DNA of 64,000 bases from an uncultured Lachnospiraceae bacterium (GTDB taxonomy: Bacteria; Bacillota; Clostridia; Lachnospirales; Lachnospiraceae), in the NCBI GenBank assembly GCA_944381535.1, contig CALWLN010000027.1, forward strand, positions 1 to 64,000, given 5' to 3'. The notes below the pieces were generated by a model. The model ran no database searches, was not told where the DNA came from, and was given only the letters and a program-made list of their open reading frames with translations. Of the stretch, positions 7,002 through 55,665 are shown one piece after another. Position numbers and translations under genes: made by a program. How positions within the stretch are numbered: the stretch's first letter is position 1; every line of letters starts with the position of its first letter.

Positions 7002-7030
7002 GTGTCCTAGAGAAACTTTATGTAAAAAAA

Positions 7031-7084
7031 CAAACTTTTTGTAATATTTTTTCGGTTGAAAGACGCGCGGGGAACTCTTATCAT
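7031..7084 (+). promoter_or_regulatory. AraC-type box and promoter, copy 1
   Basis: The box CAAACTTTTTGTA starts at 7031, and a T-rich stretch ending in CGG runs into TTGAAA (7056-7061). TATCAT (7079-7084) follows after 17 bp. The distance from CAAAC to TTGAAA is 25 bp, as at four other promoters here. It should drive the 7133-18235 operon. Confidence 0.85.
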
Positions 7085-18235: not shown

Positions 18236-18285
18236 ATCTTTCCCATTACGCTATAGACAGTGTTGCTGTAGATTGTATAAAAAAT

Positions 18286-18339
18286 CAAACTTTTTGTATT
18301 TTATTTTCGGTTGAAAAATATCGGCCTTGCTTTTACCAT
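18286..18339 (+). promoter_or_regulatory. AraC-type box and promoter, copy 2
   Basis: The box CAAACTTTTTGTA starts at 18286, TTGAAA is at 18311-18316 (25 bp from the box start), and TACCAT is at 18334-18339 after 17 bp. It drives the small peptide gene and the secreted protein genes behind it. Confidence 0.85.
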
Positions 18340-18586: not shown

Positions 18587-18618
18587 TGAAAAGGAAACAA
18601 ATCAGGAAAGGAGTTCAC

Positions 18619-20260: not shown

Positions 20261-20274
20261 GGAGGAAACGATTG

Positions 20275-23200
20275 ATGAGTAAGAGAAAAATACAAGTGAA
20301 ATGGCTGGCTGTGCTGCTCATCGCAGCTACGCTGCTTACCACAGTGAATGTGAGCGCATTTCCGGTATCCGCAGGCAATCTCACGGAGGAGGAACTGGGA
20401 GACTGGGATTATGGGTTTCAGGCAAATTTTAATGGCGCTACGGTGGGGTATCTGGACGAGGCCTTTGATGTGTATCAGTTTCAGAAGCCAGTCGATACAG
20501 AGGCTGCCAAAGCAGTGGAGGGACCGGTAAAACCGTCTGCTGTGAATCCGGAGGCATATGAAAGCCCGGAAGGCATCAAATATTCTTATTTTACAACGCT
20601 GCATTACGGAAATACAGGTGCGTATGGGCTAAAGCCCACCTACATTCAGGGTGGAGACGGACAAGGATATACGGTGCTGACCTATAAGAAGGAGAGCATG
20701 ACGGACTTTGAAGCGGAGTATGAGTTCTACAATGGAAGCGCTCGCGCCTTCGGGATCGCCTTTGGCGGAGAGTCGGGGGTGTTTCCGCTGACGCTTGATA
20801 ATAATAATGCCAATGATACTGGTGTGGCGATGTTCATGGAGGGAAGTGGAAATTTATATGTATATGGAGCCATAAATAGTTCACAAATTGAAACGACAGG
20901 CGGAGTGACTTACAGCACGATAACAGAAGCAATATATACTGTTTATGAAACTGTGGTTGGAACAGGCAATATCAGAACATCAAACATGTTTGGAACTGAT
21001 ACAGCACCAGCTATTCCAGACGAAGTCAATGCGGATACACCCTCCATCACCATATGCGTCAAAGTGAAGGACGGCAAATTGACGGTGTATGAGAAAGGAC
21101 ATTCGGATTTATCTGTTACAGTTTCGCTGTCAGACCAGTATCAGGGCGGTTATGTCTCCCTGATCGCCAATGCCACAGATCAGGGGGCCTTCGGGAGCTT
21201 CCGTATTAAAAGGACGGACGAGTGGGATTATGAAGCGCAGATCAAACCCTATGGTTCGGTCGATGTTTTTGATGATGATTTTGAAGTGTACCAGTTTAGA
21301 AAGCCAACTGATGCAGAAAAAGCGAAGAGTATTGTAGGACCAAAGAAGCCTTCGGATATAGATGTGAACGCAGAGTATGAGAATACCTCTTACAGTTATT
21401 TCACTGCAAACTGGTTCGGACAAACGGGGATTGGCGGATTAAAACCCACATACATCCAGGGAGGCGATGGAGCTGGCGGATATACCGTTATGACCTATAA
21501 CCGGGAAACCATGACGAATTTCAAGGCGGAGTTCGAGGTTTACGGAGGTTATGGTACTCCGGTAGGATTGCTGTTTGGTTCAAAAGATAAATCCGTATTC
21601 CCGATAACGGTCAACAACAACGGCGAGGACGATACCGGTGTGGCAGTTTATATGGAAAATGATGGGGGTATATTCGTATATGGAGCAATAGACAGCACAA
21701 ATATAAAGAAAGATGGAAAGGCGGAGGCAAATTCTGTTAGTGTTAACGGTCCTGTAGCGGGAGCAGATTATCGAAATTATGTAAGTAGTACAACGGCATT
21801 GAAGCTGACCGAAATGACAGATGGCGCAACTATGGAGATAGTTTCAGGCGAAGAAGTGGCGGGGGACGCAGCCACGTTGACGGTATGCGTGGAAGTACAG
21901 GATGGCGTACTGACGGTTTATGAGAAAAATCATAGTGCCAACAAGGTGTCTATTGGATTGACTGATATGTATGAGGGAGGTTATGTATCCTTCTTCGGTA
22001 CCCATGCGCAGCATTATTCCTTTAAGAGCTTCCGTATAAAAAAGAATGCCGACCCTGTGAAAGAAGAAGCAATATATGATTTCACAAAAATGGATCTTAC
22101 GAAGGATGTAAACGCAGCATTTAATTCCTACAAGTTCCAGGATGGGCAAGAGATGGTAGCCGGAAAGCCAACGGAGCAGTGGAGTACAGATCCAAATCCA
22201 GGCAATTTGGGCGTAGAGGGCAATTTCCAAAATTGGAAATTAAAGCCGAAATACTTCAATAACAACGGGCAACAGACTCTCCTGACATTAAAGGACCAGC
22301 AAGTCAGGAATTTTGAGGCAAGCGTACAGTACCTGATTCACTGGACCGAATATGGTTTGATAGTCGCTCCCGAGGGAGAGCAGGCAACCTCCCAGAACGG
22401 CATTAAGGTAGATGTGGACAGCGATGGAAGAATCCGGGTAAATGGCGCAATTGACGCCTCCACTGCCGCATGGAGCGGGAGCGGTTCTGTGGATGTGCGA
22501 GCCAGCCATCAGGTGTGGGGACCGTCGTTAGACGGATATGTAAGTCCTGATAAATCCAATGCCGAGACCAACAAAACAGAATACACTCTGCGCGTCAAAG
22601 TCCAGGATGGAGTCTTAACCGCATGGATTAAAGAATTTGAGGATGCGGGACAACTGACCGTCAAACTCACCGCAAATTACGCTGGCGGAAGCATTTCCCT
22701 GTATTCCAACGGCTGCAACCAGGGCGGCTTCCATACCTTTTCCTTCCTGGAACTTGCGGATACCCCGGCGGAATCGGCGACGGTGACGGCGCAGTGGGAG
22801 CAGCTTGCCAACGGAGTGGCGGTAACCCTCTCTGCGGATCAGGCTTACAGCAAGCTCAGCGGTACGATTGGCTTTGACAGCAGCAAATATACCTATGCGG
22901 GAGAGCGCCTCTACCCAGGCACTATGACGGAGAATGAGGAGGGACGAGTAACAGCGGAGGGGAATACGCTTACCTTCACCGTGACCGGAAATGAGCCCGG
23001 GAAATTCGCCACCTACCTCTTTAAGAGCACAGGATCGGATAAGAATGATTTTGGCGGTTTCACGTTGACGTCCGAGATCTCCGGCGTTGCGGCGGCAAAG
23101 TTCTACAAGGCTGAAGCTGAGACAGTCCGGGGGGACGTTACCGGAGATAATTTTGTTGATGTGCGGGACCTTGTTCGCCTGAAACTGTATGCCAAGGATT

Positions 23201-23955
23201 CCACATCTGTTACCATTGATCAAGCAAACAGTGATCTGCTTGGCGAAGGAAATTATACCGAGGACGAGAATTTCACCCAACTGAGAAAAGCCCTGCTGGG
23301 AATCGGCACCGTACAGTTCGGGACGCTGAATGGGAAAACCGGACTTTTCCTGGGCGATTCCATTGCCTATGGCGCAAATGACGGCGTGCCGGGTACATCC
23401 TGGGGCGGCCGGCTGGAGGACTATTATGGAATGGACAATGATGTGGTGGCCGTCAGCGCTTCCACTCTGACCAGGACAAGTGTAAATGAGGAGGGTGCTG
23501 TAAATCGGCGTGTCGTGATCGTAGACCAGCTTGATAATAAGCAGAAAGATACCTACGACTATGTGATCCTGCATGGCGGCGTAAATGACGTCTGGGGAAA
23601 ATTTGGAACAACCGGTACACTTTCAGCGGAAGGTACAACAGCATTTGCCACAGACACATGGTACGGTGCGCTGGAGGATCTGATCTGTAAGACAAAGGAA
23701 AAATATCCTGCCGCCAAAATTGGATTTATCATCAATTTTGATATCAGCGCTGAAATAGGCTCTATGGACACCTTTGTGGATGCGGTGAAGAATGTCTGCG
23801 CGAAATATGACGTCCCGTATCTTGACCTTTACAGCAATCCGGAGTTGTTGGGGATGGAGTTTGGCACGGCATATACAGTGGACGGCGTACATCCCAACGC
23901 TGCGGGCTATGAGATCTTGACGCCCATCATCGCGGACTGGATGAAGACATTGTAA
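20275..23955 (+). CDS. Secreted jelly-roll repeat protein with cohesin/dockerin-like and SGNH esterase parts
   Basis: 1226 residues. A signal peptide (to about residue 33) is followed by three ~230-300-residue jelly-roll repeats marked by DEAFDVYQFQKP, SYFTT, GYTVLTYKKESMTDFEAEYEF, GVFPLTLDN, GVAMFMEG and QGGYVSLIANAT. Next come a cohesin-like domain (~845-945), a dockerin-like segment (GDVTGDNFVDVRDLVRLKLY) and a C-terminal SGNH hydrolase (GLFLGDSIAYG, GGVND, VDGVHPNAAG), whose Ser, Asn, Asp and His are all present. It likely binds a glycan and removes acyl groups outside the cell. AGGAGG lies 9 nt before the ATG. It is fourth in the second boxed operon. Confidence 0.85.
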   Translation: MSKRKIQVKWLAVLLIAATLLTTVNVSAFPVSAGNLTEEELGDWDYGFQANFNGATVGYLDEAFDVYQFQKPVDTEAAKAVEGPVKPSAVNPEAYESPEGIKYSYFTTLHYGNTGAYGLKPTYIQGGDGQGYTVLTYKKESMTDFEAEYEFYNGSARAFGIAFGGESGVFPLTLDNNNANDTGVAMFMEGSGNLYVYGAINSSQIETTGGVTYSTITEAIYTVYETVVGTGNIRTSNMFGTDTAPAIPDEVNADTPSITICVKVKDGKLTVYEKGHSDLSVTVSLSDQYQGGYVSLIANATDQGAFGSFRIKRTDEWDYEAQIKPYGSVDVFDDDFEVYQFRKPTDAEKAKSIVGPKKPSDIDVNAEYENTSYSYFTANWFGQTGIGGLKPTYIQGGDGAGGYTVMTYNRETMTNFKAEFEVYGGYGTPVGLLFGSKDKSVFPITVNNNGEDDTGVAVYMENDGGIFVYGAIDSTNIKKDGKAEANSVSVNGPVAGADYRNYVSSTTALKLTEMTDGATMEIVSGEEVAGDAATLTVCVEVQDGVLTVYEKNHSANKVSIGLTDMYEGGYVSFFGTHAQHYSFKSFRIKKNADPVKEEAIYDFTKMDLTKDVNAAFNSYKFQDGQEMVAGKPTEQWSTDPNPGNLGVEGNFQNWKLKPKYFNNNGQQTLLTLKDQQVRNFEASVQYLIHWTEYGLIVAPEGEQATSQNGIKVDVDSDGRIRVNGAIDASTAAWSGSGSVDVRASHQVWGPSLDGYVSPDKSNAETNKTEYTLRVKVQDGVLTAWIKEFEDAGQLTVKLTANYAGGSISLYSNGCNQGGFHTFSFLELADTPAESATVTAQWEQLANGVAVTLSADQAYSKLSGTIGFDSSKYTYAGERLYPGTMTENEEGRVTAEGNTLTFTVTGNEPGKFATYLFKSTGSDKNDFGGFTLTSEISGVAAAKFYKAEAETVRGDVTGDNFVDVRDLVRLKLYAKDSTSVTIDQANSDLLGEGNYTEDENFTQLRKALLGIGTVQFGTLNGKTGLFLGDSIAYGANDGVPGTSWGGRLEDYYGMDNDVVAVSASTLTRTSVNEEGAVNRRVVIVDQLDNKQKDTYDYVILHGGVNDVWGKFGTTGTLSAEGTTAFATDTWYGALEDLICKTKEKYPAAKIGFIINFDISAEIGSMDTFVDAVKNVCAKYDVPYLDLYSNPELLGMEFGTAYTVDGVHPNAAGYEILTPIIADWMKTL

Positions 23956-24118: not shown

Positions 24119-27100
24119 ATGAAGCAAAGGCTGCGAAAATCATGGAAAAGAGGGCTCGCCATCGCCCTGAGCATAGCCATTGCGCTGGGAGCCAGTAACC
24201 TTTCCGGTTCTGTGCTGACAAGCGACGCCGCGGGCTCGGACAGCGTACCCGTGTTTACGCATGCGGAACACGGGATGGAGTTTATCCTTTCCGAGGTTCA
24301 GAAGGAAGAGACGAGGCTTTTGATTCCCACCAAAGCCAGCGGGAACCCTTTAACGCTGGAGGTGACCTTCCCGTGTACGGGCGGGATCCGTATCTGTGAC
24401 AGCGATGGGGAATATCAGGGAGAATTTCAGCCGGAGGAAGTAGAGAAGATCACCTACACGGACGACGGAGCGGGCCATCTGACAGCGGAGGCAAACGGGG
24501 AGAGACTGGTGTTAAACTACAGCCAAGCGGATGGGAAGAACCAATTCTGGACCCTGAGCGCCTATGCGGGAGATGCAGAGGTGTGGAGCGTCACTTCCGG
24601 AGATATCAAGGCCCATTATGAGAACGTGGACGGCAGCAACGTCCGCAAGGCTGCCGGAATCTACGGGACCATTGAGCCGGAGGAGACCTTTCTCGGCCTG
24701 GGGGAGCGGTATACCGGAGCGGTGCTGAACGGGGAGACCTACGATCTGTGGAACATGGATATGGGACCAGGAAAGGCCGGGACGGCGTCCTATGTGAATG
24801 TGCCTTTTCTTCACAGCAGCAAGGGGTACAGTCTGTTCTTCAGCTCCTATTACGGCGGGACGGCCGATATCGGCGAGACGGATCCCGGCGCCTATAAGCT
24901 CGATTTCTGCGGGCCTACCTTGGATTTCTATATTTTTACGGGGACGCCCCTGGATAATATCCAGAGCTATACGGTGCTGACAGGCAGGCCGACCTCTGTG
25001 CCGGAATGGGCCCTGGGATACTGGATCGGGGGAATGACAGGGTATTGGAAAGGAAATACCGCTCCGGATCCGGATGCGGCCATGGCGAATGATCATTACT
25101 ATTATGAGCTGCTGGAGGACGTGTTGTCCCGGTACCAGGCGCTTGGAATGATGCCCACCGCCGTGTTTGGGGAGGGGCTTCCCTCCCAGCGGGAGGACGC
25201 CATCAAGCTGGCGCGGGACTATAACGTCAAGATGCTGGGCTGGAACCATCCCGATATCTGGTGGAGGGGCGGCTCCACGGAGAGCGGCTGGAACGGCACG
25301 CTGACGGAAGGACTGCTCTGGAATGCCAGTGAATGGAATGATGACGGCAGTCTGAACACAAATCTTCCGCTGATCCGAAATCTGGAGGGAACCGCCTTTT
25401 ACGCGGATGAAAATGGACTTCGCAAGATTGACTACACCCATCCCAGCGCGGTCCTGGTGGCAAAAGAAAAAATGCAGACGGGAAACGGCAAGCAGACCTA
25501 TTGGGATCTGGGCATCCGGGGCGCCATGGTGGATTATGGGGAGTGGGTAGCGGGGGATACCTCCGTCTACAATGGCATGACCGGCTATGAGATGCACAAT
25601 TATCAGGCTTATGCCTACAATCAGGTGGTCCGGCAGGCGTGGGAGGAGGCCCTGGGGGATGATTTTGTGCTCTTTGCCCGGGCCGGATCGGCGGGAAGCC
25701 AGCAGTTTGCGGCCCAGTTCGGCGGCGACCAGCAAGCCACCTTCGATGGCTTAAAAGAGGCGGTGCTGGGGGGCGTATCTATTTCCAACAGCGGCTTTTC
25801 CGTATGGGGCAGTGATATTGGCGGGCTCCAGGCTCCAACCTGGAACGCTCTTCCCTCGGACGAACTGTACATGCGCTGGCTGGGATTTGCGGCCTTCAGC
25901 CCCCTGATGCGCTCCCACGGCATCACGGAGCGCAATCCCTGGGCTTACGGTGAGACGGCCCAGGAGGCTTTTGAAAACTATTACTGGCTCAGGCAGAACC
26001 TGCTGCCGGCGCTGTACAGCACGAATTTACAGACGGAGCTGGATGGCACGCCCATGATGCAGTCCATGGCGGTGGCATTTCCGGAGGAGAAGCAGCTCTT
26101 TGCCGTGGAGGATCAGTACATGTTCTGCAACGAGATCCTGGTGGCGCCGGTTTATACGGAGGGAGCCTCTGTTCGTGAGGTTACTCTGCCGGAGGGTACT
26201 TGGTACGATCTCTATACTGGGGAGCGCATCACCTCCGAGGGAACGGCCCAATCGGTGGAGGCTCCTGCGGACACCACTCCGGCTTTCTTAAGAAGCGGCA
26301 CAGTCCTTCCGGTGCAGCTGGACACCCAGAGCCTGGCGCTGACGGAGGCCATCGACGGCTACGACGCCTCGGATGCAGGGAGCCATGAGGCCAACGCGCT
26401 GCTGGTGACGCCCGCAGAGGGGACTCGCTCCCAGATCTGGTATACGGATGAGGCGAAGCTGGGCCTTACGGACAGCGCGGTCATTTCCAAGGTCACCTAT
26501 ACATCCCAGAGGGGAGAGGACTCCTATACCATTACCTCCGACAGCCGGGAGAATCCCACGTTCCTGACAGCTTACGCCACAAGGGCCGGCAAGGTGTTCG
26601 TGGACGGCAGGGAGCTGGCGCGGCTGGAGCAGAAGCCGGAGGCGGGACAGGAGGGCCGTTATGTGGACCTGGACGCGAACCGGACCATCGTTTCCTGCGC
26701 TGACGGGGACTGGAGCCGTGTGACGTTTCAGCTGGCAGGGCAGGCGTCCGTCTATGACTGCGAGTTCGCTCTGGTAAATGAGAATCAATGGGTGGGTTTT
26801 CTGGACGACCTGTTTGAGGTCTATAAATACAACAAGCCGGATTCGGAAGAGGACGTCGAAGCGGCAGTTGGCCCGGTAAAGCCCTCGGATGAGGATCCGG
26901 ACAGCGCAGACGGCCATTCGTATTTCACCACGGCGTATCTGGGAACTTATGGGCAGAATTACTTAAAGCCCTCCCATGTATTTGAGGACGGCTACAACAT
27001 GCTGACCTACAAGGAGGAGATGGATTCCGACTTTTACGCGGAGTATGAGATGCTGGGGACCTACAGCATCTATGGGATTGCTGTCGGAGGGGAAAAAGGC

Positions 27101-29395
27101 GTATTTCCGGTGTCCCTGGACGGGCAGAGTGACAACGACAGCGGCGTGCTGATCGCCATGGAAAATGACGGCAAAGTCCATATAGCCGGAGCCATCAATC
27201 CCCAGGATGTGGTGACCACGGGCGCGCAGGGAGTAAGCGTAAATTCCCAATACAATAAATGGACCGGCGCAGCCTCCGTCTATACCAGGGATTCTTTGAC
27301 CGGAAGGGATATTGATCCCGCAAAAAGCGGGAATAACAAGTCCGATTCCTATACGGTCTGCGTCTCTGTGGAAAACGGCAGGTTGACCGTGTGGGAGAAG
27401 GAAAGCCCGGACGCCTATATCAGCGTGGCGCTGGCAGAGCAGTATCGCCCCGGACAGGTGTCTCTGCTTACGAACCAGGTGCTGCACGGCGCCTTCAAGG
27501 CCTTCCGGCTGCGGATGGAGGACGGGCTGTATTATGATTTTAAGAACCTTGCCGCTTTGGAGGCCCTGGACGGAAAGCTGGATTCCTATGAGGTGGACAA
27601 GAACACGGGAGCGGCGGTGCCGGGAACCGTGTCCGAACAGTGGGGACTGGCGGACGGAACCGTAAGCGGGGCAGATTATGCCGGGGGAGGGATTTTGCCG
27701 GATCATACCCAGGGGAACGCCTCCACCATCAGCCTGCTGACGGTGCCGGGACGGCGGATCATGAATTTTACCGCGGAATTTGCCTACATCCCCAACTATA
27801 CCCAGTACGGCCTGATCGTGGGGGAGGAGGGAACCCTACCGGAGGTCTCCGGGGAAGGGATTCAGCTGTTTTACTCCAGCGAGGGTAAACTGTACGTCTG
27901 GGGCGCCATCAATTCCCAGACCGCATCGTACACGGGGACGGGAGCCGTAATCACAAAAGTCAGTACCGGGTATGTTGAGTGCGGCCCGGTGCCGGGCATG
28001 AGCAATGCTGATGTGAACAGCAGATCCTATACGGTGCGTGTCAGCGTCAGCGGCAGACAGCTTACCGTTTGGATCGAGGAATATCCGGACTATGTATTTT
28101 CCGTGGCCCTGAGCGGGGATTACGCCGGAGGGGCCCTCTCCCTGTATTCCACCGGGTGTAACCAGGGAGCCTTTCAGTCTTTGCGTCTGAAGGCCGCCCA
28201 CAGCACCTGGCATGATCTTCGGGATGTGCAGGATTTGGCGGAGCTGGACGAAAACTGGAATTCCTATTATTTTGACACAGTTCAGGAGGAGCCGGAGCGG
28301 GGAAACCCGTCTGAACAGTGGATTGCCCAAAACGGAGGCATCGCTCCGGTTCACCGCAATGACGGCGGTATCCACCGGTCGCTGCTGACCATGAAGGACA
28401 AGGAGGCGGAGAGTTTTCACGCCAGCTTTGCGTATGCGGCCAACTATACCGGCTACGGCCTGATCGTGGGGGAGGAGGGCACCCTGCCGGAGACCACCGG
28501 GAAGGGAATCCAACTCTATTATACCAGCGACGGGAGATTGCAGGTCAGAGGAGCCGTGGATCCCGATTCCGCGGAGTGCGGGGATGCCGGGATCACCACA
28601 AGGGGAGAGAATTTCATCGAGACGGAGAGCCTCTTTCCGGACGGCGTTCCGGAGGGGAAGATCTACACGGTAGATGCCAGCGTACAGGACGGACGGCTTA
28701 TCGTGTGGAACTCCGGCGCGCCGGAGCATGTGTTCACGGCGGAGCTTACGGAGGAGTATGAGGGGGGAGCCCTTTCCCTGTATTCCTACGGCAACAATCA
28801 GGGCGCTTTCCTGTCCTGGTCCCTGGAAGAGACGCAGCCGGAGGGAGAGGTCTCGGTAGAGCGGATACTTGCGGGGGATATCGTCACGTTCCTTCTCAAG
28901 ACGGCGGGCTCCTATGACAGCCTGACGGCCGCCATAGAGTATGACGCGGAGCAGTACGAACCCACCGACCCATCGGCCTTTGTCGCCTGCGGCGAAGGGG
29001 TAGCGGAAACTGTCTCTTCCATGGGGGACCGTTTATCGGTAAGGCTGACCGGCCAGGATGGCCCGCATGACGGCCAGTGGGCCCTCGTCTCCTTCCGGTA
29101 CAAGGGCGTCGGCACACCCCAGACAGAGGATGTCGTCTTTCGTTTCCGGGGCCGGGATGCTTCCTCCTATGACAGAGACCTGGCGGCGGAGGTGACGACC
29201 CCGGGCGACGCTGATGGCGACGGGCTTGCGGACGTCCGGGATCTGATCCGCGTGAAACGGTACGCGGCGGGAGCGGCGGACGACAGCCAGATTCAGAGGG
29301 AAAACTGCCGCTTTGACGGGAGCATCCGGTCAGAGCTGAACCTGAAGGGCTTTCGGAGTTTCCTGGTGACGAAGCCCCTTTTGGGGGATGATTAA
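24119..29395 (+). CDS. Giant secreted GH31 glycosidase with jelly-roll repeats, cohesin- and dockerin-like parts
   Basis: 1758 residues. The signal peptide (GLAIALSIAIALGASNLSG) is followed by a GH31 catalytic part (~40-880) with nucleophile D472 in AMVDYGEW and acid/base D537 in QFGGDQ. Three jelly-roll repeats follow (from ~895, ~1140 and ~1365), of the same type as in the proteins at 20275 and 30865. A cohesin-like domain (~1580-1690) and a dockerin-like segment GDADGDGLADVRDLIRVKRY end the protein. GH31 enzymes cleave alpha-glucosidic, alpha-xylosidic or alpha-galactosidic bonds; specificity is not readable here. It is last in the second boxed operon; a new boxed promoter lies 25 bp after the stop. 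Confidence 0.9.
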   Translation: MKQRLRKSWKRGLAIALSIAIALGASNLSGSVLTSDAAGSDSVPVFTHAEHGMEFILSEVQKEETRLLIPTKASGNPLTLEVTFPCTGGIRICDSDGEYQGEFQPEEVEKITYTDDGAGHLTAEANGERLVLNYSQADGKNQFWTLSAYAGDAEVWSVTSGDIKAHYENVDGSNVRKAAGIYGTIEPEETFLGLGERYTGAVLNGETYDLWNMDMGPGKAGTASYVNVPFLHSSKGYSLFFSSYYGGTADIGETDPGAYKLDFCGPTLDFYIFTGTPLDNIQSYTVLTGRPTSVPEWALGYWIGGMTGYWKGNTAPDPDAAMANDHYYYELLEDVLSRYQALGMMPTAVFGEGLPSQREDAIKLARDYNVKMLGWNHPDIWWRGGSTESGWNGTLTEGLLWNASEWNDDGSLNTNLPLIRNLEGTAFYADENGLRKIDYTHPSAVLVAKEKMQTGNGKQTYWDLGIRGAMVDYGEWVAGDTSVYNGMTGYEMHNYQAYAYNQVVRQAWEEALGDDFVLFARAGSAGSQQFAAQFGGDQQATFDGLKEAVLGGVSISNSGFSVWGSDIGGLQAPTWNALPSDELYMRWLGFAAFSPLMRSHGITERNPWAYGETAQEAFENYYWLRQNLLPALYSTNLQTELDGTPMMQSMAVAFPEEKQLFAVEDQYMFCNEILVAPVYTEGASVREVTLPEGTWYDLYTGERITSEGTAQSVEAPADTTPAFLRSGTVLPVQLDTQSLALTEAIDGYDASDAGSHEANALLVTPAEGTRSQIWYTDEAKLGLTDSAVISKVTYTSQRGEDSYTITSDSRENPTFLTAYATRAGKVFVDGRELARLEQKPEAGQEGRYVDLDANRTIVSCADGDWSRVTFQLAGQASVYDCEFALVNENQWVGFLDDLFEVYKYNKPDSEEDVEAAVGPVKPSDEDPDSADGHSYFTTAYLGTYGQNYLKPSHVFEDGYNMLTYKEEMDSDFYAEYEMLGTYSIYGIAVGGEKGVFPVSLDGQSDNDSGVLIAMENDGKVHIAGAINPQDVVTTGAQGVSVNSQYNKWTGAASVYTRDSLTGRDIDPAKSGNNKSDSYTVCVSVENGRLTVWEKESPDAYISVALAEQYRPGQVSLLTNQVLHGAFKAFRLRMEDGLYYDFKNLAALEALDGKLDSYEVDKNTGAAVPGTVSEQWGLADGTVSGADYAGGGILPDHTQGNASTISLLTVPGRRIMNFTAEFAYIPNYTQYGLIVGEEGTLPEVSGEGIQLFYSSEGKLYVWGAINSQTASYTGTGAVITKVSTGYVECGPVPGMSNADVNSRSYTVRVSVSGRQLTVWIEEYPDYVFSVALSGDYAGGALSLYSTGCNQGAFQSLRLKAAHSTWHDLRDVQDLAELDENWNSYYFDTVQEEPERGNPSEQWIAQNGGIAPVHRNDGGIHRSLLTMKDKEAESFHASFAYAANYTGYGLIVGEEGTLPETTGKGIQLYYTSDGRLQVRGAVDPDSAECGDAGITTRGENFIETESLFPDGVPEGKIYTVDASVQDGRLIVWNSGAPEHVFTAELTEEYEGGALSLYSYGNNQGAFLSWSLEETQPEGEVSVERILAGDIVTFLLKTAGSYDSLTAAIEYDAEQYEPTDPSAFVACGEGVAETVSSMGDRLSVRLTGQDGPHDGQWALVSFRYKGVGTPQTEDVVFRFRGRDASSYDRDLAAEVTTPGDADGDGLADVRDLIRVKRYAAGAADDSQIQRENCRFDGSIRSELNLKGFRSFLVTKPLLGDD

Positions 29396-29419
29396 CCCTG
29401 GAGGAATCATTTGGAAATG

Positions 29420-29473
29420 CAAACTTTTTGCAGCATTTTTTCTGTTGCAGGAAGCGCGGATACATTTTATAAT
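29420..29473 (+). promoter_or_regulatory. AraC-type box and promoter, copy 3
   Basis: The box CAAACTTTTTGCA starts at 29420, TTGCAG is at 29445-29450 (25 bp from the box start), and a perfect TATAAT is at 29468-29473 after 17 bp. It drives the dehydrogenase gene. Confidence 0.82.
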
Positions 29474-30646: not shown

Positions 30647-30751
30647 GCGTAAAAAAAATGAAATGCCATACATTTCCTGCGAAAAAATCCTGTAATTATG
30701 TTAAAATACATAGATGAAATTGGAGGAAAGAAGATTTGTTGTATAAAAAAA

Positions 30752-30805
30752 CAAACTTTTTTCATCTTTTTTTGTGTTGAAAAGGAGAAGTGTATATTTT
30801 AGTAT
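30752..30805 (+). promoter_or_regulatory. AraC-type box and promoter, copy 4
   Basis: The box CAAACTTTTTTCA starts at 30752, TTGAAA is at 30777-30782 (25 bp from the box start), and TAGTAT is at 30800-30805 after 17 bp. It drives the longest operon (30865 to 53193). Confidence 0.83.
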
Positions 30806-30864
30806 AGAGACAGCATGAGAGCTTTTGCTTGTGAATGATAAAAATCAGTGAAGGAGGAACGTAC

Positions 30865-33800
30865 ATGGGAAAAGTGAAACGGAGAGGACTGGTGCTGCTT
30901 CTGGTGACAGCCGTGCTGTTTACGTCCGTGAATCTTGACGTATTTCGCAGCCAGGCAGGAGTGGCTTCACCAGAGGAACTGGCGGAATCCGGGTGGGATT
31001 ACGCTTTCACCGCCGAATTGGGCGGCGATTCTGTCAGCTATCTGGACGAGGCCTTTGATGTGTACCAGTACAATAAGCCGGTGACGGCGGGGGATACCGC
31101 AAAGGTGGCCGGGCCTGTGGAGCCATCGGCGGAGAACGCAGCCTCCAATGATGGCGAGGGAGGATATTCCTATTTTACCACTCAGGCATACGGAAGTAAT
31201 TCCAGAGGAGGCTTAAAACCCACTTCCATTTCTGGTGGAAATGGCAGCGGTTATGCGGCGTTGACCTATACGAAGGAAAGCATGACGGATTTTGAGGCGG
31301 AGTACGAGTTCTACAGCAGCTGGGGCCGCGTGTTTGGCCTTGCCTTCGGGGCGGAGCAGGGAGTCTTCCCGCTGTCTTTGGACAATGACAACAGCAACGA
31401 TACCGGAGTGGCCATCTACATGGAGAATAACGGAACCATGTTTGTGTACGGAGCCATCGACAGCGCGAACACCTCAGCCACAACGGGCGTGACGGTCACC
31501 AAGGATGTGACAAACACGCAATACTACGGCAACGTGGTGGGAACAGCCAATGTGAAGGCGGCGGGCATGACCGGCGATGATACCATCGAGGTGGAGAATA
31601 CGCTGACGGCAGATTCCAAGACCTTTACCATGTGCGTAAAAGTGGAGAATGGCGTATTGACCATATATGAGAAGAACCATGCGGATTACGTGGTCACCAT
31701 TCCGCTGTCGGGAAATTATCAGGGCGGCTATGTATCGCTGATCGCCAACGAGACCAATCACGGCGCCTTCGGGGATTTTAGTATTAAGAATACGGCGGAG
31801 CCGGAACCGGAAGAGGGCGGCTTTACCGTGGAACTGGGCGGCGGCTCCGTGAGCTATCTGGACGAGGATTTTGACGTCTATCAGTACAATAAGCCCACCA
31901 CAGCGGAGAATATGGCAAAAGTGACCGGGCCTGTGGAGCCGTCGGCCACGGATCCCAATTCTTATGATGGAGCATATTCTTATTTTACCACGCAGGCCTA
32001 TGGGAACTATTCGAAGGGCGGCCTGAAGCCTACTTTCATTCCCGGTGGAAATGGCAGCGGTTATACGGTGTTGACCTATACAAAGGAAAGCATGACAGAT
32101 TTCGAGGCGGAGTACGAGTTCTACAGCAGCTGGGGCCGCGTGTTCGGCCTTGCCTTCGGGGCGGAGCAGGGGGTATTCCCGCTGTCTTTGGACAATGACA
32201 ACAGCAATGATACCGGAGTAGCCATCTACATGGAGAATAATGGAACCATGTATGTGTACGGAGCCATTGACAGTACAAATGCTGCGGCCACAGCGGGCGT
32301 AACGGTCACCAAGAATGTGACCAACACGCAATATTACGGCAACGTGGTGGGAACAGCCAATGTGAAGGCGGAGGGCATGACCGGCGATGATACCATCGAG
32401 GTGGAGGATACGCTGACGGCAGATTCCAAGACCTTTACCATGTGCGTAAAAGTACAGGACGGCATCTTGACGATATACGAGAAGGATCATGCGGACCGTG
32501 TGGTCACAGTGCCCCTGGCGGAGAACTATCAGGGCGGCTATGTGTCTCTGGTCGCAAACGCTACGGATCACGGCGCTTTTGGAGATTTCAGTATTAAGAA
32601 CACGGCGGAGGCGGAGCCTGAGCCGGAACCGGAAGAGGACGGCTTTACCGTGGAACTGGGCGGCGGCTCCGTGAGCTATCTGGACGAGGATTTTGATGTC
32701 TATCAGTACAATAAGCCGGTGACGGCGGGGGATACCGCAAAGGTGGCCGGGCCTGTGGAGCCATCAGAGGAGAATGCGGTTTCCAATGACGGAAAGGGAG
32801 GATATTCCTATTTTACCACTCAGCCATACGGAAATAATTCCCGAGGCGGCTTAAAGCCCACGTCTATTCCTGGCGGAAATGGCAGTGGTTATACGGTGTT
32901 GACCTATACGAAGGAAAGCATGACGGATTTCGAGGCGGAGTACGAGTTTTACAGCAGCTGGGGCCGCGTGTTCGGCCTTGCCTTCGGGGCGGAGCAGGGG
33001 GTATTCCCGCTGTCTTTGGACAATGACAACAGCAATGATACCGGAGTGGCCATCTACATGGAGAATAATGGGACCATGTATGTATACGGAGCCATTGACA
33101 GTACAAATGCTGTGGCCACAGCGGGCGTAACGGTCACCAAAAATGTGACAAACACGCAATACTACGGCAACGTGGTGGGAACAGCCAATGTGAAGGCGGA
33201 GGGCATGACCGGCGGCGATACCATCGAGGTGGAGGGGACGCTTACAGAGGAGTCGCCAGTTTTTACCATGTGCGTAAAGGTGGAAAATAGCGTACTCACG
33301 ATATATGAGAAGAACCATGCGGATTACGTGGTCACCATTCCGCTGTCGGGAAATTATCAGGGCGGCTATGTATCGCTGATCGCCAACGAGACCAATCACG
33401 GCGCCTTCGGGGATTTCCTTATTAAGAAGCTGGAGGCTTCCACCAATCCTCCCGAGCCGGTGACCAATCCCATGGACGAAGTGGCGGAGCAGTTTGACGC
33501 TTACTATCTGGCGGACGCCTCCGTCACAAATGTGATGGAGAGCGTGGACGTGAAGGAGCACTGGGGCATCAACGGCCAGGGATTTATTTCAGCCGCGAAG
33601 GATTCCACAGGAAATGAAACCAGGAACGTGGACGTCCTCACCTGGAAGGAAAAGCCCTACACGGATTTCGAGATGACCTTTACCTACCAGCAGACCTGGC
33701 ACCGGGTGGGTGTGCTGCTGGGAACGGAAAAGGGTGTATATCCGTTAAGCAAGAGCGGCGATAGCACTATAGCGGAGGGCGGCGTCATGTTCTTCCTGGA

Positions 33801-36800
33801 GGCGGAGGGAACCCCCAACGCCATGGGAGACTTTGTGAACGGCTATACCAACGCCCAAAACGTCCACAGACGCATTACCGGTTTGAATCTGGCAAACTTT
33901 ACGGATGAAACCGGAAATGCCACGACGCATGTGAACAACAAGACGGAGCATACCCTGAAGATTGTGGTGAAGGACAAGGATCTGTACGCATATGTGGACA
34001 GCTATACGGATCCTGTTATGTATCTGGCGCTGCCGGACGACTATGAGGGCGGTTACGTATCTCTGTTCTCCGCATCCAATCCCGGTTACGGCGTGAAGGA
34101 TTTTGCCATCTCCGAGGAGATCACCACGGCTCTTCCGGAAAAAGAGACCGGGGATAACGTATATGAGGTGGACTTTACTGAGCTGCACGGGATCAAGGAG
34201 CTGGCGGAGGACTTCAGCGCCTATGCGCTGGATAGCATTGAGGAGGAGCCCCGGGAAATCCCGGTGGAGGAAGCTTTTACCATCGTTGGAAACGGGATCA
34301 GACGCAATACGGAAAGCCAGGGCAACGATTGGGGCGGCTTCCACATCCTTACGTTAAATAATAAACGATATGAGAATTTTGAACTTGAGCTTGTCTATGC
34401 CCAGAGTTGGATCCGCTTCGGCGTGATGGTGGGAGAGCCCGGTGAGTTTGCCTACAGCGGAACGGAGGGCGACTGCCGCGGGACTTATGGCGCAGCGCTG
34501 GCCTATACGGAGGCGGAGGGCCACCGGAACATCAAGGGAGGAATGACGGCAGGCTCCACCACCGTACACAGTTACGCCCTGACCAAGGATGAGACCAGGA
34601 TCCCAGGCTTCGACGATCTGGGAAGCGTGGAGAAGAACGTGAACGGCGAAGTGCTTCATACCATGAAGCTGCGGGTGGTGGGAGATTATTTGACCATGGT
34701 GATCGACGGAAATGAAGACAGCCGGCTGACGGTCTGCCTGGACGGTTATGACGGCGGCTACATCTCACTGGTCACCAATGGAAGCGCTACCGCAAAGGGC
34801 GCCTTCCGGTCTCTGAAGATCACGGAGCTTGGCGCGGACGCAGCGCTGGGAACAAAAGAGCCGGAGCAAAAGAACGGCTTTACCTCTCTGGAGAAGATGG
34901 AGGAGGAATTTGACGCCTACTATCTTGCGGACGCAGCGGTCTCCACTGCCATGGAGCCGGTAGATCTGGTGGAGAACTGGTGGTTCAACGCCCAGGGCTA
35001 TGCCGCGCGGTATGAGGCGGGACATGGATCCGAGTATGAGGATGTGGATGTCCTTACCTACACAAAACAGACCTATACGGATTTTGAACTGACCTACACC
35101 TATCAGCAGACCTATAACCGGACGGGGATCATCATCGGCACACAGGCCGGACAGTTCCCCCTACAGGCCACGGACCAGGGACTGAAAGCCACGGGAGGCG
35201 TGATGTTCTTCATGGAGGCGGAGGGCAATCCCAACGCCATGGGCGATTTTGTCAGCGGATATACGAATCAGGGAGAATCGCGTCAGCGTCTGGGTCCGGT
35301 GGAAATGGGAGGCTTTGTGGATGCGGAAGGCAGCGCCATGGACAATGTCAACAACAAGGCTTCCCATCAGGTGAAGATTGTGGTGAAGAACAGGGAGATG
35401 TATGTCTTCGTGGATGGAAGCAGCGATTACTGCATGTATCTGAAGCTTCCGGAGTCCTATAATGGAGGATATATATCCATCTTCTCCTCCGCCCCGAAGG
35501 CCTTCGGCATTGACAGCTTTACGGTCTCCGAGAACATCACCACCGCCCTCCCCGCCAAAACAGGGGTTTCCAGTGACGGAACCAGCATGAGCGTTTCGTT
35601 CGCCAACCAGAACTTTGACGCCGGAGCCTTTGATACTTATTACATGGAAAAAATCGACGAGGCGGGCTCTATGGCGCAGACAGATTTCTACGATTACTGG
35701 ATGATCGCAAACGGCAGCTTAAAGCGGCAGAGCAACAGCGTGGGCGGCAGCGACGTCAGCGACGTGGCGGTGCTCACCTATAAGGAGCGTACTTATGAGG
35801 ACTTTGTGGCAACCATAGAATATCAGAAGACGCCGGGAAGGCTGATGTTCTTCTTTGGAACGGAAAATGGAAGCTATCCTCTCTACCGGGACGACGCCGG
35901 CGACCAGGAAAACGGAGGCGTCATCCTTTACCCGGAGAACGATATGGGCGCGGGCGGCGGCATATGCGCCGTGGGCGAGGTGAAGCTGGCCAATGCCGGG
36001 TACCGTCCCATTTACTACGTGAAGCCCTATGCGCCGGGGTACCATGACCAGGAGGAATGGCTCTCCAATGTGGGTAATACCTACACCATGACCGTGGCTG
36101 TCATCAATAAACACTGCTATGTTTACTTGGAAGGCTTTGGGCTGATGACGGACTTTGACCTGATGGATGATTATGACGGCGGCTATCTGTCCCTGGCTTC
36201 CAGCAGTACTGCCCAGCATGGATTTAAGAGCTTTTCGGTGACGGCCCTTGATGGGTCAGACGGCGGAATCATCACGGATGCGGCAGACCTTCGGGATATC
36301 ACGGTGAGAACCGGAACCTCCCTGGAGGCATTGGAGCTTCCGTCCACGGTGCGGGTGACGACAGGAAATGGTCAGCGTTTTGACGCGGACGTGACCTGGA
36401 GCGCTCAGGGCTACGACGGCTCTACGCCGGGGAATTATCAGTTCGTGGGCACCCTGTCCGTGCCGGGTCTATCCAATCCGGGCCGTGTGGCGGCCCTGCT
36501 GACAGTGCGGGTGCGTGACAGCTGGCAGAGCAGCAGCGGCTCCACGAAGATCTGGACCTTTGACACGGAAAGCGATCTGCTGGATTTTGAGAGCTATTAC
36601 GTGAAGGACGCCAACGAGGGCGGCGCCGTGTGGTCTGACTTCCCCATGTGGTATGTGCAGGACGGACAGCTCTGGATGGACCGGAACCGGGGAAGCAACG
36701 GCAGCGAGAACAGCAATTTGCATATCCTGACCTATACCGGGAAGCAGTATAAGAATTTTGAGGCTCAGGTGGATTTCTCTCAGCAGTATGTGCGGCAGAT

Positions 36801-37485
36801 GATCCTGTTTGGTTCCAAGGAACCGGGGCAGTACATCGATTACGCCGATCCCCATGCGGCTACCAATCCCATTGCCGCTTACGTGGAGTTTGAGGGGAAC
36901 CGCAACGCCATCGGAAATGTGGTAAACACCAATTATTACAGGCGTATGGACGAGCAGGTCCCCATGCTGCGGGAGGACGCGGCGGTGGACGACCAGTTTT
37001 ACGATAAGGAAAATCCTCAGAACAGCATGGGAACCATGCACACCTTAAAGATCCGGGTGGTGGGAGATGAGATCTCCATGTGGCTGGATGATTACGAGGA
37101 GGTATTCACCGGGAAGATCGGCGAAGGCTATGAGGGCGGATACATTTCTCTTGTCAGCGCGGCCAGGGAGGTTGCGCTGGATAACTTTAGGATTACAGAA
37201 CTGGACGAGGACGGCAATCCCGTGGAGGAGAACCTTACGGTGGCGGCCAATGGAACCCTGAACTTGACCCTGGGCGAGGATGTCCCGGAACAGGTTCAGG
37301 AGGTGGAGCCCACGAAGCCGGCTGAAGAAGAGGAGCCGAAAAAGGAGGTTCCGGTGGTTGGAATCGTTGCAGGCGTATGCGCGGCGGTGGTAGTCACAGC
37401 GGGAATCATAACCATAGTCATCCTCCGAAAGAAACGGAAGAACGCAGAGAAACCAGAGGAAACAGACAGGAAAGAGGGTAATTAA
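30865..37485 (+). CDS. Giant anchored surface protein with eight jelly-roll repeats
   Basis: 2206 residues. Signal peptide, then eight related repeats beginning at about residues 45, 319, 593, 866, 1096, 1336, 1576 and 1892. A bacterial Ig-like (Big_4 type) domain lies at ~1800-1885, and the C-terminus has a transmembrane helix (~2161-2188) with a Lys/Arg-rich tail. Repeat landmarks are F-D-x-Y, VLTYTKESMTDFEAEYEF, FPLSLDN, an E-x-(E/N)GN/GTM block, and a GGYVSL strand near the end. No catalytic domain is visible. The fold pattern suggests concanavalin-like glycan binding (inference). RBS AAGGAGGAAC. It is first in the transporter operon, in front of two solute-binding proteins, so it probably gathers substrate at the surface. 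Confidence 0.88.
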   Translation: MGKVKRRGLVLLLVTAVLFTSVNLDVFRSQAGVASPEELAESGWDYAFTAELGGDSVSYLDEAFDVYQYNKPVTAGDTAKVAGPVEPSAENAASNDGEGGYSYFTTQAYGSNSRGGLKPTSISGGNGSGYAALTYTKESMTDFEAEYEFYSSWGRVFGLAFGAEQGVFPLSLDNDNSNDTGVAIYMENNGTMFVYGAIDSANTSATTGVTVTKDVTNTQYYGNVVGTANVKAAGMTGDDTIEVENTLTADSKTFTMCVKVENGVLTIYEKNHADYVVTIPLSGNYQGGYVSLIANETNHGAFGDFSIKNTAEPEPEEGGFTVELGGGSVSYLDEDFDVYQYNKPTTAENMAKVTGPVEPSATDPNSYDGAYSYFTTQAYGNYSKGGLKPTFIPGGNGSGYTVLTYTKESMTDFEAEYEFYSSWGRVFGLAFGAEQGVFPLSLDNDNSNDTGVAIYMENNGTMYVYGAIDSTNAAATAGVTVTKNVTNTQYYGNVVGTANVKAEGMTGDDTIEVEDTLTADSKTFTMCVKVQDGILTIYEKDHADRVVTVPLAENYQGGYVSLVANATDHGAFGDFSIKNTAEAEPEPEPEEDGFTVELGGGSVSYLDEDFDVYQYNKPVTAGDTAKVAGPVEPSEENAVSNDGKGGYSYFTTQPYGNNSRGGLKPTSIPGGNGSGYTVLTYTKESMTDFEAEYEFYSSWGRVFGLAFGAEQGVFPLSLDNDNSNDTGVAIYMENNGTMYVYGAIDSTNAVATAGVTVTKNVTNTQYYGNVVGTANVKAEGMTGGDTIEVEGTLTEESPVFTMCVKVENSVLTIYEKNHADYVVTIPLSGNYQGGYVSLIANETNHGAFGDFLIKKLEASTNPPEPVTNPMDEVAEQFDAYYLADASVTNVMESVDVKEHWGINGQGFISAAKDSTGNETRNVDVLTWKEKPYTDFEMTFTYQQTWHRVGVLLGTEKGVYPLSKSGDSTIAEGGVMFFLEAEGTPNAMGDFVNGYTNAQNVHRRITGLNLANFTDETGNATTHVNNKTEHTLKIVVKDKDLYAYVDSYTDPVMYLALPDDYEGGYVSLFSASNPGYGVKDFAISEEITTALPEKETGDNVYEVDFTELHGIKELAEDFSAYALDSIEEEPREIPVEEAFTIVGNGIRRNTESQGNDWGGFHILTLNNKRYENFELELVYAQSWIRFGVMVGEPGEFAYSGTEGDCRGTYGAALAYTEAEGHRNIKGGMTAGSTTVHSYALTKDETRIPGFDDLGSVEKNVNGEVLHTMKLRVVGDYLTMVIDGNEDSRLTVCLDGYDGGYISLVTNGSATAKGAFRSLKITELGADAALGTKEPEQKNGFTSLEKMEEEFDAYYLADAAVSTAMEPVDLVENWWFNAQGYAARYEAGHGSEYEDVDVLTYTKQTYTDFELTYTYQQTYNRTGIIIGTQAGQFPLQATDQGLKATGGVMFFMEAEGNPNAMGDFVSGYTNQGESRQRLGPVEMGGFVDAEGSAMDNVNNKASHQVKIVVKNREMYVFVDGSSDYCMYLKLPESYNGGYISIFSSAPKAFGIDSFTVSENITTALPAKTGVSSDGTSMSVSFANQNFDAGAFDTYYMEKIDEAGSMAQTDFYDYWMIANGSLKRQSNSVGGSDVSDVAVLTYKERTYEDFVATIEYQKTPGRLMFFFGTENGSYPLYRDDAGDQENGGVILYPENDMGAGGGICAVGEVKLANAGYRPIYYVKPYAPGYHDQEEWLSNVGNTYTMTVAVINKHCYVYLEGFGLMTDFDLMDDYDGGYLSLASSSTAQHGFKSFSVTALDGSDGGIITDAADLRDITVRTGTSLEALELPSTVRVTTGNGQRFDADVTWSAQGYDGSTPGNYQFVGTLSVPGLSNPGRVAALLTVRVRDSWQSSSGSTKIWTFDTESDLLDFESYYVKDANEGGAVWSDFPMWYVQDGQLWMDRNRGSNGSENSNLHILTYTGKQYKNFEAQVDFSQQYVRQMILFGSKEPGQYIDYADPHAATNPIAAYVEFEGNRNAIGNVVNTNYYRRMDEQVPMLREDAAVDDQFYDKENPQNSMGTMHTLKIRVVGDEISMWLDDYEEVFTGKIGEGYEGGYISLVSAAREVALDNFRITELDEDGNPVEENLTVAANGTLNLTLGEDVPEQVQEVEPTKPAEEEEPKKEVPVVGIVAGVCAAVVVTAGIITIVILRKKRKNAEKPEETDRKEGN
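31020..33430 (+). repeat. Three near-identical ~810-830-bp coding repeats
   Basis: Repeats 1-3 of the giant surface protein are almost identical at DNA level in long blocks, for example around 31260-31400, 32070-32210 and 32900-33040. The other five repeats share only protein-level similarity. This shows recent tandem duplication or gene conversion, and copy number may vary. Confidence 0.85.
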
Positions 37486-53310: not shown

Positions 53311-53311
53311 C

Positions 53312-53383
53312 AATTCGTAAGCCGGCGATACTGCTGGGGCGAGGAGCCGGTTACCCGCTTAAAGACCGTCATAAAATATTTCG
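53312..53383 (-). pseudogene. Duplicated 3' end of the araC gene (copy 1)
   Basis: 72 bp that match the last 72 bp of the araC gene at 54060-54131 with only three mismatches, exactly 748 bp away. Read on the minus strand it encodes KYFMTVFKRVTGSSPQQYRR and LTN, then a stop. Nothing of the rest of araC is present. The hicBA genes lie between the two copies. Confidence 0.92.
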
Positions 53384-54057: not shown

Positions 54058-55533
54058 TTAATTCGTAAGCCGGCGGTACTGCTGGGGCGAGGAACCGGTC
54101 ACCCGCTTAAAGACCGTCATAAAATATTTCGTGTCAGAAAAGCCGGATTTCAGGGCAATTTCATTTACCCTGTATTTTGAGTTCTGCAAGAGAAAGATGG
54201 CATGGTTGATCCGCAGATTCAAAATATATTTGTTGGGAAGCTGCCCGGTGGCCTTCTTAAAAATCTGCCGGAAATAAACCTCCGAGATATTTGAGGCGCC
54301 GGCCACCTCTGTGATGGTCAGTTCCGGGTCGGAAAAATGCTTGCTCATGTAATGGAGGGAGGGACGGATCAGTTCCGGGATGGTAGTGTCCCGGTTCCCG
54401 CTGGTCTGTGCCTCCGCCAGGATCTGATAAAAAACAGAAAGAGTCCGGTAGTGTGTGTCCCGGAACGTCTCGGTCTGCAGCAACAACAGCTCTTCAAACA
54501 ACATCTGTATTTTATCCGTCCGCAGCGGAATGGTATAATCCGGCTTTGGATGCTCCCCGGTGAGAAACTCAAATTCGATCACGATACAGTGGTCATAAGT
54601 GTAGGCCGGCTTGTAGCTGGTGCGGGCGGGAAGATAGGTCAGATAGCCTGCCCCCAGCGGCAGCGTGGTATCCCCGCAGATATATTGCCCCTCCGCATCG
54701 ATGTGATAGGCCAGCAGTGGCTTGTGGGGGGAACACAGCAGCCCGTCCGCGGATGCGCAGAAAGAGGGTAACGGCTCCCTGGCGTAGCGCACGATATGGG
54801 CTGTTTCATTTTTGAAGGCGGATAGAAGCAGATTGCCCCGCATGGTGCGGTAGCCCTCCGCCTCCACATAGGCGAAAGCGCCCTCCCGAGGCGTATAGGT
54901 GTGCTCCTCGGGATTGTAGGAATAGGGAAATGTCCCGGCCCTGCATCCAAAGGCAACGCCATAGCGGCACCAGCTCTGAATAAATTCCATTGTCAGCTCA
55001 AAATCCCCGATGGGTTCGGAGCGAAGGGTCAGCATGCAGAAGTTGGAAGCATCCAGATGATGGTACGCGTTGTAAACATATTGGTTAAAGACAAGATGGC
55101 CGGAATCGTTCAGGGACCAATAGTCAGAAATGTTCACCTTGCGCGCCTGCGCGCCCTCTGCCAGCGAGTCCATGTAGTAGCAGTCAAAGATATCTTCCAG
55201 CTCGGCAACCGAAGAAAGCCTGGAAAAGTCCAGCTCCAGAAGCGTCTTCCCCTGGGAGGTGAGGCGGATCGAGCGGTAGCCGCCCTGGTTGGGGTTCTTA
55301 TTGTTGGATACCAGGGAAAAGGAGCCTCGGGGTGGCCTGTCAAAATAAAATTTGGAATAGGAAGCCTCCAGCCCGTCCACCTTCATGGTCGCTTTGTTCT
55401 GTGAGACTGTCAGCGACATGGTGTGGGACACACGGGAAGCCACCTGTAAGAGGAAAGGCTTATTTTCCGTGGTAAAATTCAGGGTATAGACTTCTGATAT
55501 TTGAACTAGATTGTTGTTGTCTTTAAAAAACAT
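54058..55533 (-). CDS. AraC-family regulator with a jelly-roll sensor domain
   Basis: 491 residues. Residues ~36-92 (HTMSLTVSQNKATMKVDG, GSFSLVSNNKNPNQGGYRSI) match the C-terminal half of the exported jelly-roll repeats. Residues ~98-245 (ELEDIFDCYYMDS, FCMLTL, GDFELTMEFIQSWCRYGVAF, GAFAYVEAEGYRTMRGN) match their N-terminal half, so the halves appear in swapped order. A cupin-like AraC ligand part lies at ~265-340 and two HTH motifs at ~388-489 (ITEVAGASNISEVYFRQIF, VNEIALKSGFSDTKYFMTVF). It is cytoplasmic and probably activates the five boxed promoters. Divergent from the GH36 operon; RBS AGAGGTAA. Only the repeat match is seen directly; the ligand is inferred. Confidence 0.9.
   Translation of the reverse strand: MFFKDNNNLVQISEVYTLNFTTENKPFLLQVASRVSHTMSLTVSQNKATMKVDGLEASYSKFYFDRPPRGSFSLVSNNKNPNQGGYRSIRLTSQGKTLLELDFSRLSSVAELEDIFDCYYMDSLAEGAQARKVNISDYWSLNDSGHLVFNQYVYNAYHHLDASNFCMLTLRSEPIGDFELTMEFIQSWCRYGVAFGCRAGTFPYSYNPEEHTYTPREGAFAYVEAEGYRTMRGNLLLSAFKNETAHIVRYAREPLPSFCASADGLLCSPHKPLLAYHIDAEGQYICGDTTLPLGAGYLTYLPARTSYKPAYTYDHCIVIEFEFLTGEHPKPDYTIPLRTDKIQMLFEELLLLQTETFRDTHYRTLSVFYQILAEAQTSGNRDTTIPELIRPSLHYMSKHFSDPELTITEVAGASNISEVYFRQIFKKATGQLPNKYILNLRINHAIFLLQNSKYRVNEIALKSGFSDTKYFMTVFKRVTGSSPQQYRRLTN
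54060..54131 (-). repeat. Direct repeat, copy 2 (true araC 3' end)
   Basis: The in-gene copy of the 72-bp direct repeat that flanks hicBA. The other copy is at 53312-53383. Confidence 0.92.
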
Positions 55534-55585: not shown

Positions 55586-55614
55586 ATCATACCACATGGA
55601 CTATAAAAAAACAA
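55586..55614 (-). promoter_or_regulatory. araC promoter overlapping the regulator box
   Basis: On the minus strand: TTGTTT (55614-55609), 17 bp, TATGAT (55591-55586). The -35 shares bases with the CAAAC box at 55612, so a protein bound there would also affect araC itself. Confidence 0.65.
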
Positions 55615-55665
55615 ACCTTTTGTACACTTTTTTTGGTTGAAAGATAGCTGCATTGTTCCTATGAT
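55612..55665 (+). promoter_or_regulatory. AraC-type box and promoter, copy 5
   Basis: The box CAAACCTTTTGTA starts at 55612, TTGAAA is at 55637-55642 (25 bp from the box start), and TATGAT is at 55660-55665 after 17 bp. It drives the GH36-GH31 operon. Confidence 0.84.

Follow-up and report, generated by a model that had tools for sequence, protein, structure and literature searches.

An AraC-family regulator with a rotated copy of an exported repeat domain in its predicted cupin

Members of the AraC/XylS family, such as AraC, BgaR, and RhaR, couple a cupin sensor to a double helix-turn-helix (HTH) domain and activate adjoining sugar clusters. Regulators may also share a sensor with exported binding proteins, for which LacI and the periplasmic binding proteins provide a precedent. 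XylR is another, its AraC HTH being attached to a ligand domain of a fold that exported binding proteins also have. In the RsgI anti-sigma factors of Clostridium thermocellum, the sensor module resembles in kind modules of the enzymes that these factors help to regulate; these carbohydrate-binding modules lie outside the cell and signal through the membrane (PMC4711584). Concanavalin A is described as a circular permutation, of tandem-repeat origin, of the same general jelly-roll found in other legume lectins (PMC3320104). The gene described here lies on the reverse strand at 54058..55533 of a 64,000-nucleotide stretch of DNA (hereafter, the window) from an uncultured Lachnospiraceae bacterium (GCA_944381535.1, contig CALWLN010000027.1, positions 1–64,000 of the forward strand), whose genome is a 4.3-Mb draft in 241 contigs. 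It encodes a 491-residue AraC-family regulator, and with moderate confidence we favor the view that a permuted repeat unit sits in its predicted cupin, likely derived out of phase from a tandem array, and that the regulator likely senses an imported sugar and activates the surrounding cluster.

The regulator shares the plan of the AraC/XylS family. Its double HTH is matched by Pfam HTH_18 (71.4 bits; cut-off 33.6) and HTH_AraC (56.7 bits; cut-off 26.6), and the DNA-binding domain spans residues 387–491 (54058..54375). An N-terminal cupin is predicted, with strand 1 at residues 1–24 (55462..55533; spliced profile and fold matches) and the rest at residues 262–335 (54529..54750), and a role as activator of the adjoining sugar cluster is likely. 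Where it differs is in the ~237-residue permuted jelly-roll that lies between cupin strands 1 and 2, whereas matched AraC-type sensor chains total 149–164 residues. Unlike proteins of the XylR or LacI type, it has no periplasmic-binding-protein-like ligand domain, since profile and fold matches are to a jelly-roll and a cupin; the XylR ligand domain has another fold and is not known to be permuted or to sit within a cupin. Unlike RsgI, it has no membrane-type hydrophobic segment (peak hydropathy over 19 residues 0.69, and no higher than 1.31 in any of the 21 regulators), which agrees with the cytoplasmic location given in an earlier note made from the window's sequence. To the author of that note, the design was not known as a described class. 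Sensor sharing with exported proteins does have precedents in RsgI, LacI, and XylR, while searches of open-licence PMC papers yielded no description of an AraC cupin that contains a permuted jelly-roll.

The insert (residues 25–261; 54751..55461, as delimited by profile hits, rotated and spliced profiles, and an array-junction match) has the C-terminal half of the repeat domain in first place, at residues 35–93 (55255..55431; profile positions ~144–216, model strands). A predicted turn at residues 93–101 (55231..55257) connects strand 85–93 to strand 96–102 and so links the natural C and N termini of the domain. The N-terminal half follows at residues 102–259 (54757..55230; profile positions 2–150, with the genome profile match at 54787–55230). 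All of these features are on the reverse strand. Only the HTH domains were returned by a Pfam scan of the regulator, with no PF06439 match at E 0.1, and no named Pfam or NCBIfam family for the insert was found among the matches listed, which in one scan were the best 25 of 36.

The counterpart of the insert lies in an eight-repeat protein that is predicted to be exported and anchored in the membrane (30835..37485, forward strand; hydrophobic N terminus and C-terminal segment), which is 2216 residues long from the first ATG and 2206 in its record, P0016. The earlier note had aligned by eye regulator residues ~98–245 with the N-terminal half of the repeats and residues ~36–92 with their C-terminal half, naming repeat 5 as the counterpart, and its sequence words were located at regulator 178–195 and 221–234 against 1182–1199 and 1223–1236 of this open reading frame (ORF). 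Both alignments were borne out. By blastp, regulator 96–250 matches residues 1111–1237, the N-terminal half of repeat 5 (30% identity, E 1e-15), and regulator 1–100 matches residues 1269–1333, its C-terminal half (37% identity, E 2e-8). Repeat 5 (34138..34848, forward strand) is the best-scoring repeat for both halves and, by blastp, domain comparison, and model, the closest in the window to the regulator domain. With phmmer, regulator 31–243 is collinear with residues 1269–1479 of the same protein (62 bits, E 6e-21), a stretch composed of the C-terminal half of repeat 5 and the N-terminal half of repeat 6.

A profile built from 289 repeat domains of 44 exported proteins, with no regulators in it, also supports both alignments. 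It matches all 21 regulators found, including that of the window, and in 17 of the 18 full-length ones gives two matches in swapped order: profile ~143–218 at residues 15–95 and profile 2–150 at residues 102–260, offset in P0006 by a 33-residue extension. In P0011 the N-terminal half alone is matched at a cut-off of E 0.01, the second match in P0063 is weak (E 0.0015), and the three cut-short regulators yield N-terminal-half material only. The two matches overlap slightly and jointly cover about one domain, so that the N-terminal part of each protein corresponds to the C-terminal part of the other, as expected of a circular permutation. Rotation of the profile lifted the mean best single match from 78.5 bits to 109.2; the optimum was broad, covering cuts before positions 133–161, and a single match then spans residues 35–259 of the window's regulator. 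By contrast with the regulators, the repeat profile reached E 10 in only one of 16 AraC ORFs that lack an insert (15 distinct, L030 being identical to L033), at −0.7 bits, and the segment thus does more than resemble ordinary AraC ligand domains. These comparisons show that the regulator carries a homologous, complete, and rotated repeat domain, an arrangement conserved in its family. Across the whole genome, the profile found 14 exported copies, the window's regulator, and one weak match outside the cluster, in a 603-residue frame (G000:C95:29203-29394; E 7e-4).

The earlier note treated the sensor domain as the jelly-roll of the exported repeats in permuted form. The same domain is found in swapped order, as claimed, yet it does not make up the whole sensor part and is instead inserted in an AraC chassis. 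A profile from which the insert had been spliced out aligns end to end with a 257-residue AraC protein from genome G779, so that the chassis also exists without the insert, whose limits fall near residues 24 and 262. Fold matches of the regulator model to AraC, BgaR, RhaR, and ExsA start at residue 7–13, which places the insert after the first strand and before the second of a cupin that is predicted to remain present. Residues 10–35 were considered as a further part of the repeat, as the profile reaches residue 15 or 16 in several regulators; this was rejected because the model and the insert-less relative assign the first strand to the cupin.

A mis-called start with an upstream half missing was rejected, since only 207 bases separate the regulator from the neighboring GH36 gene and homologues begin at the same place. 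Ten of 13 aligned regulator rows start with MFF at the same position, the exceptions being P0006 (33 residues ahead), P0010 (cut short), and P0011 (one residue later). The last 74 bases of the gene (54058–54131) are duplicated at 53310–53383 with 70 of 74 identical, and between the copies lie a HicB-type antitoxin gene (53407–53790) and a small ORF that, judged by eye, resembles HicA. It seems that a toxin–antitoxin island entered at the 3′ end of the regulator gene and restored that end.

Predicted structures agree with the sequence comparisons. The repeat 5 model (predicted local distance difference test, pLDDT, 84; predicted template modeling score, pTM, 0.87) has strands from 173–181 to 222–230 that correspond to regulator strands 36–44, 47–52, 60–64, 70–76, and 85–93. 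Outside AraC proteins, the best fold match of the regulator model is an engineered circularly permuted glucanase, and the exported repeat model matches legume lectins, CBM66, and 3-keto-glycoside hydratases (9fbe, 3osd). Judged by the order of elements and by these matches, the permuted and natural forms are predicted to share a concanavalin-type jelly-roll, and the unrelated folds that would have spoken against the earlier note did not appear, on predicted models. A sequence search of the PDB with the repeat alignment gave no match at E 0.1. The exported repeats are akin in fold to the PF06439 3-keto-disaccharide hydrolase family, whereas the regulator domain is rotated and without a Pfam match; the regulator is not a PF06439 member and belongs with the AraC one-component sugar regulators.

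Conservation points to a site held in common. Thirty-two alignment columns are conserved both in regulators (at least 85%) and in repeat-5 domains (at least 60%), and 12 of these are at or below 0.42 in other repeats. The 12 marker columns comprise D161, Q186, R190, Y191, F195, F202, Y204, E226, and R229 in the N-terminal half and H37, S58, and N77 in the C-terminal half. Since the conservation extends across both rotated halves, it suggests that the rotated domain keeps a working site, and the proposal in the earlier note that ligand recognition was copied from capture proteins to the regulator is plausible. It is unlikely, though deserving of weight, that the inserted jelly-roll is instead a structural or dimerization module, with the AraC cupin alone taking the inducer. 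Both permuted halves retain the polar and aromatic residues characteristic of repeat 5, beyond what a scaffold would appear to need, and in the 13-row alignment 44 of 237 positions are invariant in the insert, compared with 7 of 74 in the portion assigned to the cupin.

The regulator can be connected with candidate target promoters through an ungapped 41-bp element, recognized by comparison of intergenic regions, which has the −35 box TTGAAA at its end; a spacer of 17 bases separates this from a −10 box. Thirty-one of the 41 columns are identical upstream of three genes: the GH36 gene at 55741, divergent from the regulator (element at 55602..55642, at the −35 of the promoter; 38/41 to the consensus), the 2216-residue exported protein (30742..30782; 35/41), and a cohesin-domain protein gene at 18586 (18276..18316; 37/41). 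A matrix of these three sites finds two further elements, one upstream of the GDSL, xylose-isomerase-like, and GH3 genes from 7127 onwards (7021..7061; 37/41; 50 bits) and a weaker one upstream of the dehydrogenase gene at 29506 (29410..29450; 29/41; 32 bits), with a 17-base spacer and TATAAT. All five are on the forward strand. As controls, each left-out site scored 41–43 bits with the matrix of the other two, the reversed window reached at most 26 bits with the full matrix, and twelve first-order Markov random windows gave no more than 24/41. The element marks five promoters of the cluster, and its place beside the −35 box is what we would expect of an AraC-type activator (class II position).

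When a 20-base core was searched with up to two mismatches, the whole genome gave four sites, all on this contig, and the reversed pattern gave two. Given the element upstream of five cluster genes and a core confined to this contig, a candidate regulon that includes the exported repeat proteins can be predicted for the regulator. It is rather improbable that the element belongs to another regulator, and that this AraC protein has its targets elsewhere or controls no promoter but its own. Two observations do weigh on that side: the genome contains many AraC paralogues, and at locus L020 of the related genome G051 a weak element (28 bits) faces the regulator gene itself. The confinement of the core to one contig counters them, as does the recurrence of sites in G051, the sole other regulator-bearing genome of six in the genus. 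Moreover, the regulator is the only Pfam HTH match among 31 window proteins scanned, a set that leaves out ORFs 19700, 42935, 48196, and 49035 and minor ORFs. Of the four core sites in G051, three have −10 boxes and precede the orthologues of 55741, 18586, and 7127, and the fourth (C97:539) lacks a good −10. One chance-like core site without a −35 box occurs in G364, and none in G776, G777, or G778. In this sister species, at L021 (G051:C97, 539–1344), the regulator and GH36 are separated by a gene of the sigma-70 family, resembling the extracytoplasmic function type, which has a 20-base core of its own upstream.

In addition to the eight-repeat protein, the cluster encodes two predicted exported proteins with three repeats each, a GDSL esterase with a dockerin (20272..23955) and a GH31 enzyme (24119..29395), both on the forward strand and identified from Pfam and repeat-profile matches; all three repeat proteins have signal-like hydrophobic N termini. 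Also encoded are glycoside hydrolases of families GH36, GH31, and GH3, a pair of solute-binding proteins, and ABC permeases, one of which was confirmed by Pfam and three of which were recognized by eye. The cohesin-domain protein (18586–19707) lies near the dockerin-bearing esterase, which suggests a small cellulosome-like pairing. In the mechanism we propose, exported proteins would hold glycan at the surface together with the esterase, GH31, and cohesin–dockerin partners, and the glycoside hydrolases, solute-binding proteins, and permeases would process and import it. An imported fragment may then bind the inserted domain, alone or with the cupin, and alter the cupin or the dimer, upon which the HTH domain would bind the 41-bp element next to the −35 box and activate transcription, including that of the exported repeat proteins. 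The enzymes offer a tentative hint that the ligands may be oligosaccharides with alpha-galactose, xylose, or glucose.

The permutation itself would need no exotic event. A FastTree phylogeny that covers 135 exported domains together with 18 regulators places the latter in a single clade (0.999), which joins 17 repeat-5-type domains (0.95). The N-terminal-half columns alone give the same placement (0.878), and with the C-terminal-half columns alone the regulators group with two domains of P0035 (0.948). Residues 45–499 of P0035 hold two adjacent repeat-5-like domains in tandem, and their junction, residues 201–405, is the best contiguous match to the regulators' insert among the 44 exported proteins (135 bits); this tandem is the best model of the donor array. 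The 30 best rows contain similar stretches in 26 other proteins (107–132 bits), and those of P0028, P0044, and P0048, which were compared with repeat boundaries, cross a junction. Because the insert is collinear with stretches across tandem-repeat junctions, one array period taken out of phase would suffice. The classical model of permutation involves duplication followed by trimming (PMC3320104). The present case differs from concanavalin A in that a gene, coding for a transcription factor, is itself permuted and that the same cluster contains a tandem array. A hybrid of the C-terminal half of repeat 5 and the N-terminal half of repeat 6, at which the phmmer match hinted, was rejected: both halves are nearer to repeat-5-type domains, and two paired repeat-5-like units, such as those of P0035, therefore fit better. 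Against the six P0016 repeats kept, the window's regulator shows 33% identity to the repeat-5 type versus 15–20% in the C-terminal half, and 30% versus 24–27% in the N-terminal half.

Phase within an array is ambiguous. The natural order is seen in solved 3-keto-glycoside hydratases and in the last repeat of the 2216-residue protein, which is separated from the others by a Big_4 domain and contains the best PF06439 stretch among the three exported window proteins (53.8 bits; cut-off 26.8). We infer that transfer went from array to regulator; genome G371 has repeats, and the regulator was not detected there. We regard as evenly poised the fuller scenario in which the factor gained its glycan sensor as an out-of-phase array period in a cupin loop, the same site captures glycan outside and reads fragments inside, and the factor controls the donor array. 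That the halves pair across a dimer as swapped half-domains, rather than within one chain, is highly improbable. This alternative draws on the halves lying in separate blocks and on the fact that AraC proteins dimerize. Opposed to it, the single-chain model packs the halves together (mean block pLDDT ~86 over 31–240) with a tight turn between the natural termini, and the block order at the turn (residues 93–101) equals that at the inter-repeat junction of P0035.

Matches to the regulator were found in 2 of 397, 1 of 391, and 3 of 396 genomes sampled, its own genome being in each, and the third genome of the last sample is G779, the source of the insert-less relative. Among 397 genomes of the family, apparently one and the same draw for both searches, regulators were found in two (its own and G051) and repeats in three (these and G371). 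With its own genome left out, as it was chosen for the feature, the regulator is found in one genome, G051 of the same genus, which is among the 2 of 396 with repeats; a co-occurrence p of 4e-5 includes the chosen genome and was not relied on. Within the genus, two of six genomes have the regulator (G000 and G051; two of the six are less than 90% complete). G051 also has a paralogue, only 34% identical, on a 7-kb contig (L020) that carries another exported repeat ORF, matched by the repeat profile at 109 and 58 bits. At this locus (G051:C277, 2128–7001), the divergent paralogue stands beside a 570-residue ORF without a Pfam match and the exported repeat ORF. For four of the six non-window regulators on contigs of at least 9 kb, the longest contig has the same size as that of one of 42 listed exported repeat proteins: P0003/P0018 (1,148,208), P0014/P0024 (27,144), P0062/P0028 (43,366), and P0059/P0029 (9,936). 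This is indirect evidence that each pair lies on one contig and bears on a shared contig, not on distance. An assembly chimera or chance resemblance has the draft state of the genome in its favor but is scarcely credible, as the arrangement occurs in 17 of the 20 other homologues, those of full length (30–69% identity), with only the N-terminal half matched at E 0.01 in P0011.

The locus offers a testable case of a regulator acquiring its sensor from the kind of protein that it is predicted to control, and a candidate donor array, a relative that lacks the insert, and putative operators are all available for it. It also illustrates a route by which circular permutation could arise without special enzymes, through an out-of-phase copy of one period of a tandem array. 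The 41-bp element lends itself to immediate reporter assay. Finally, should the same glycan be bound at the shared site in both proteins, a screen with the 237-residue domain could reveal what this uncharacterized class of surface repeats recognizes.
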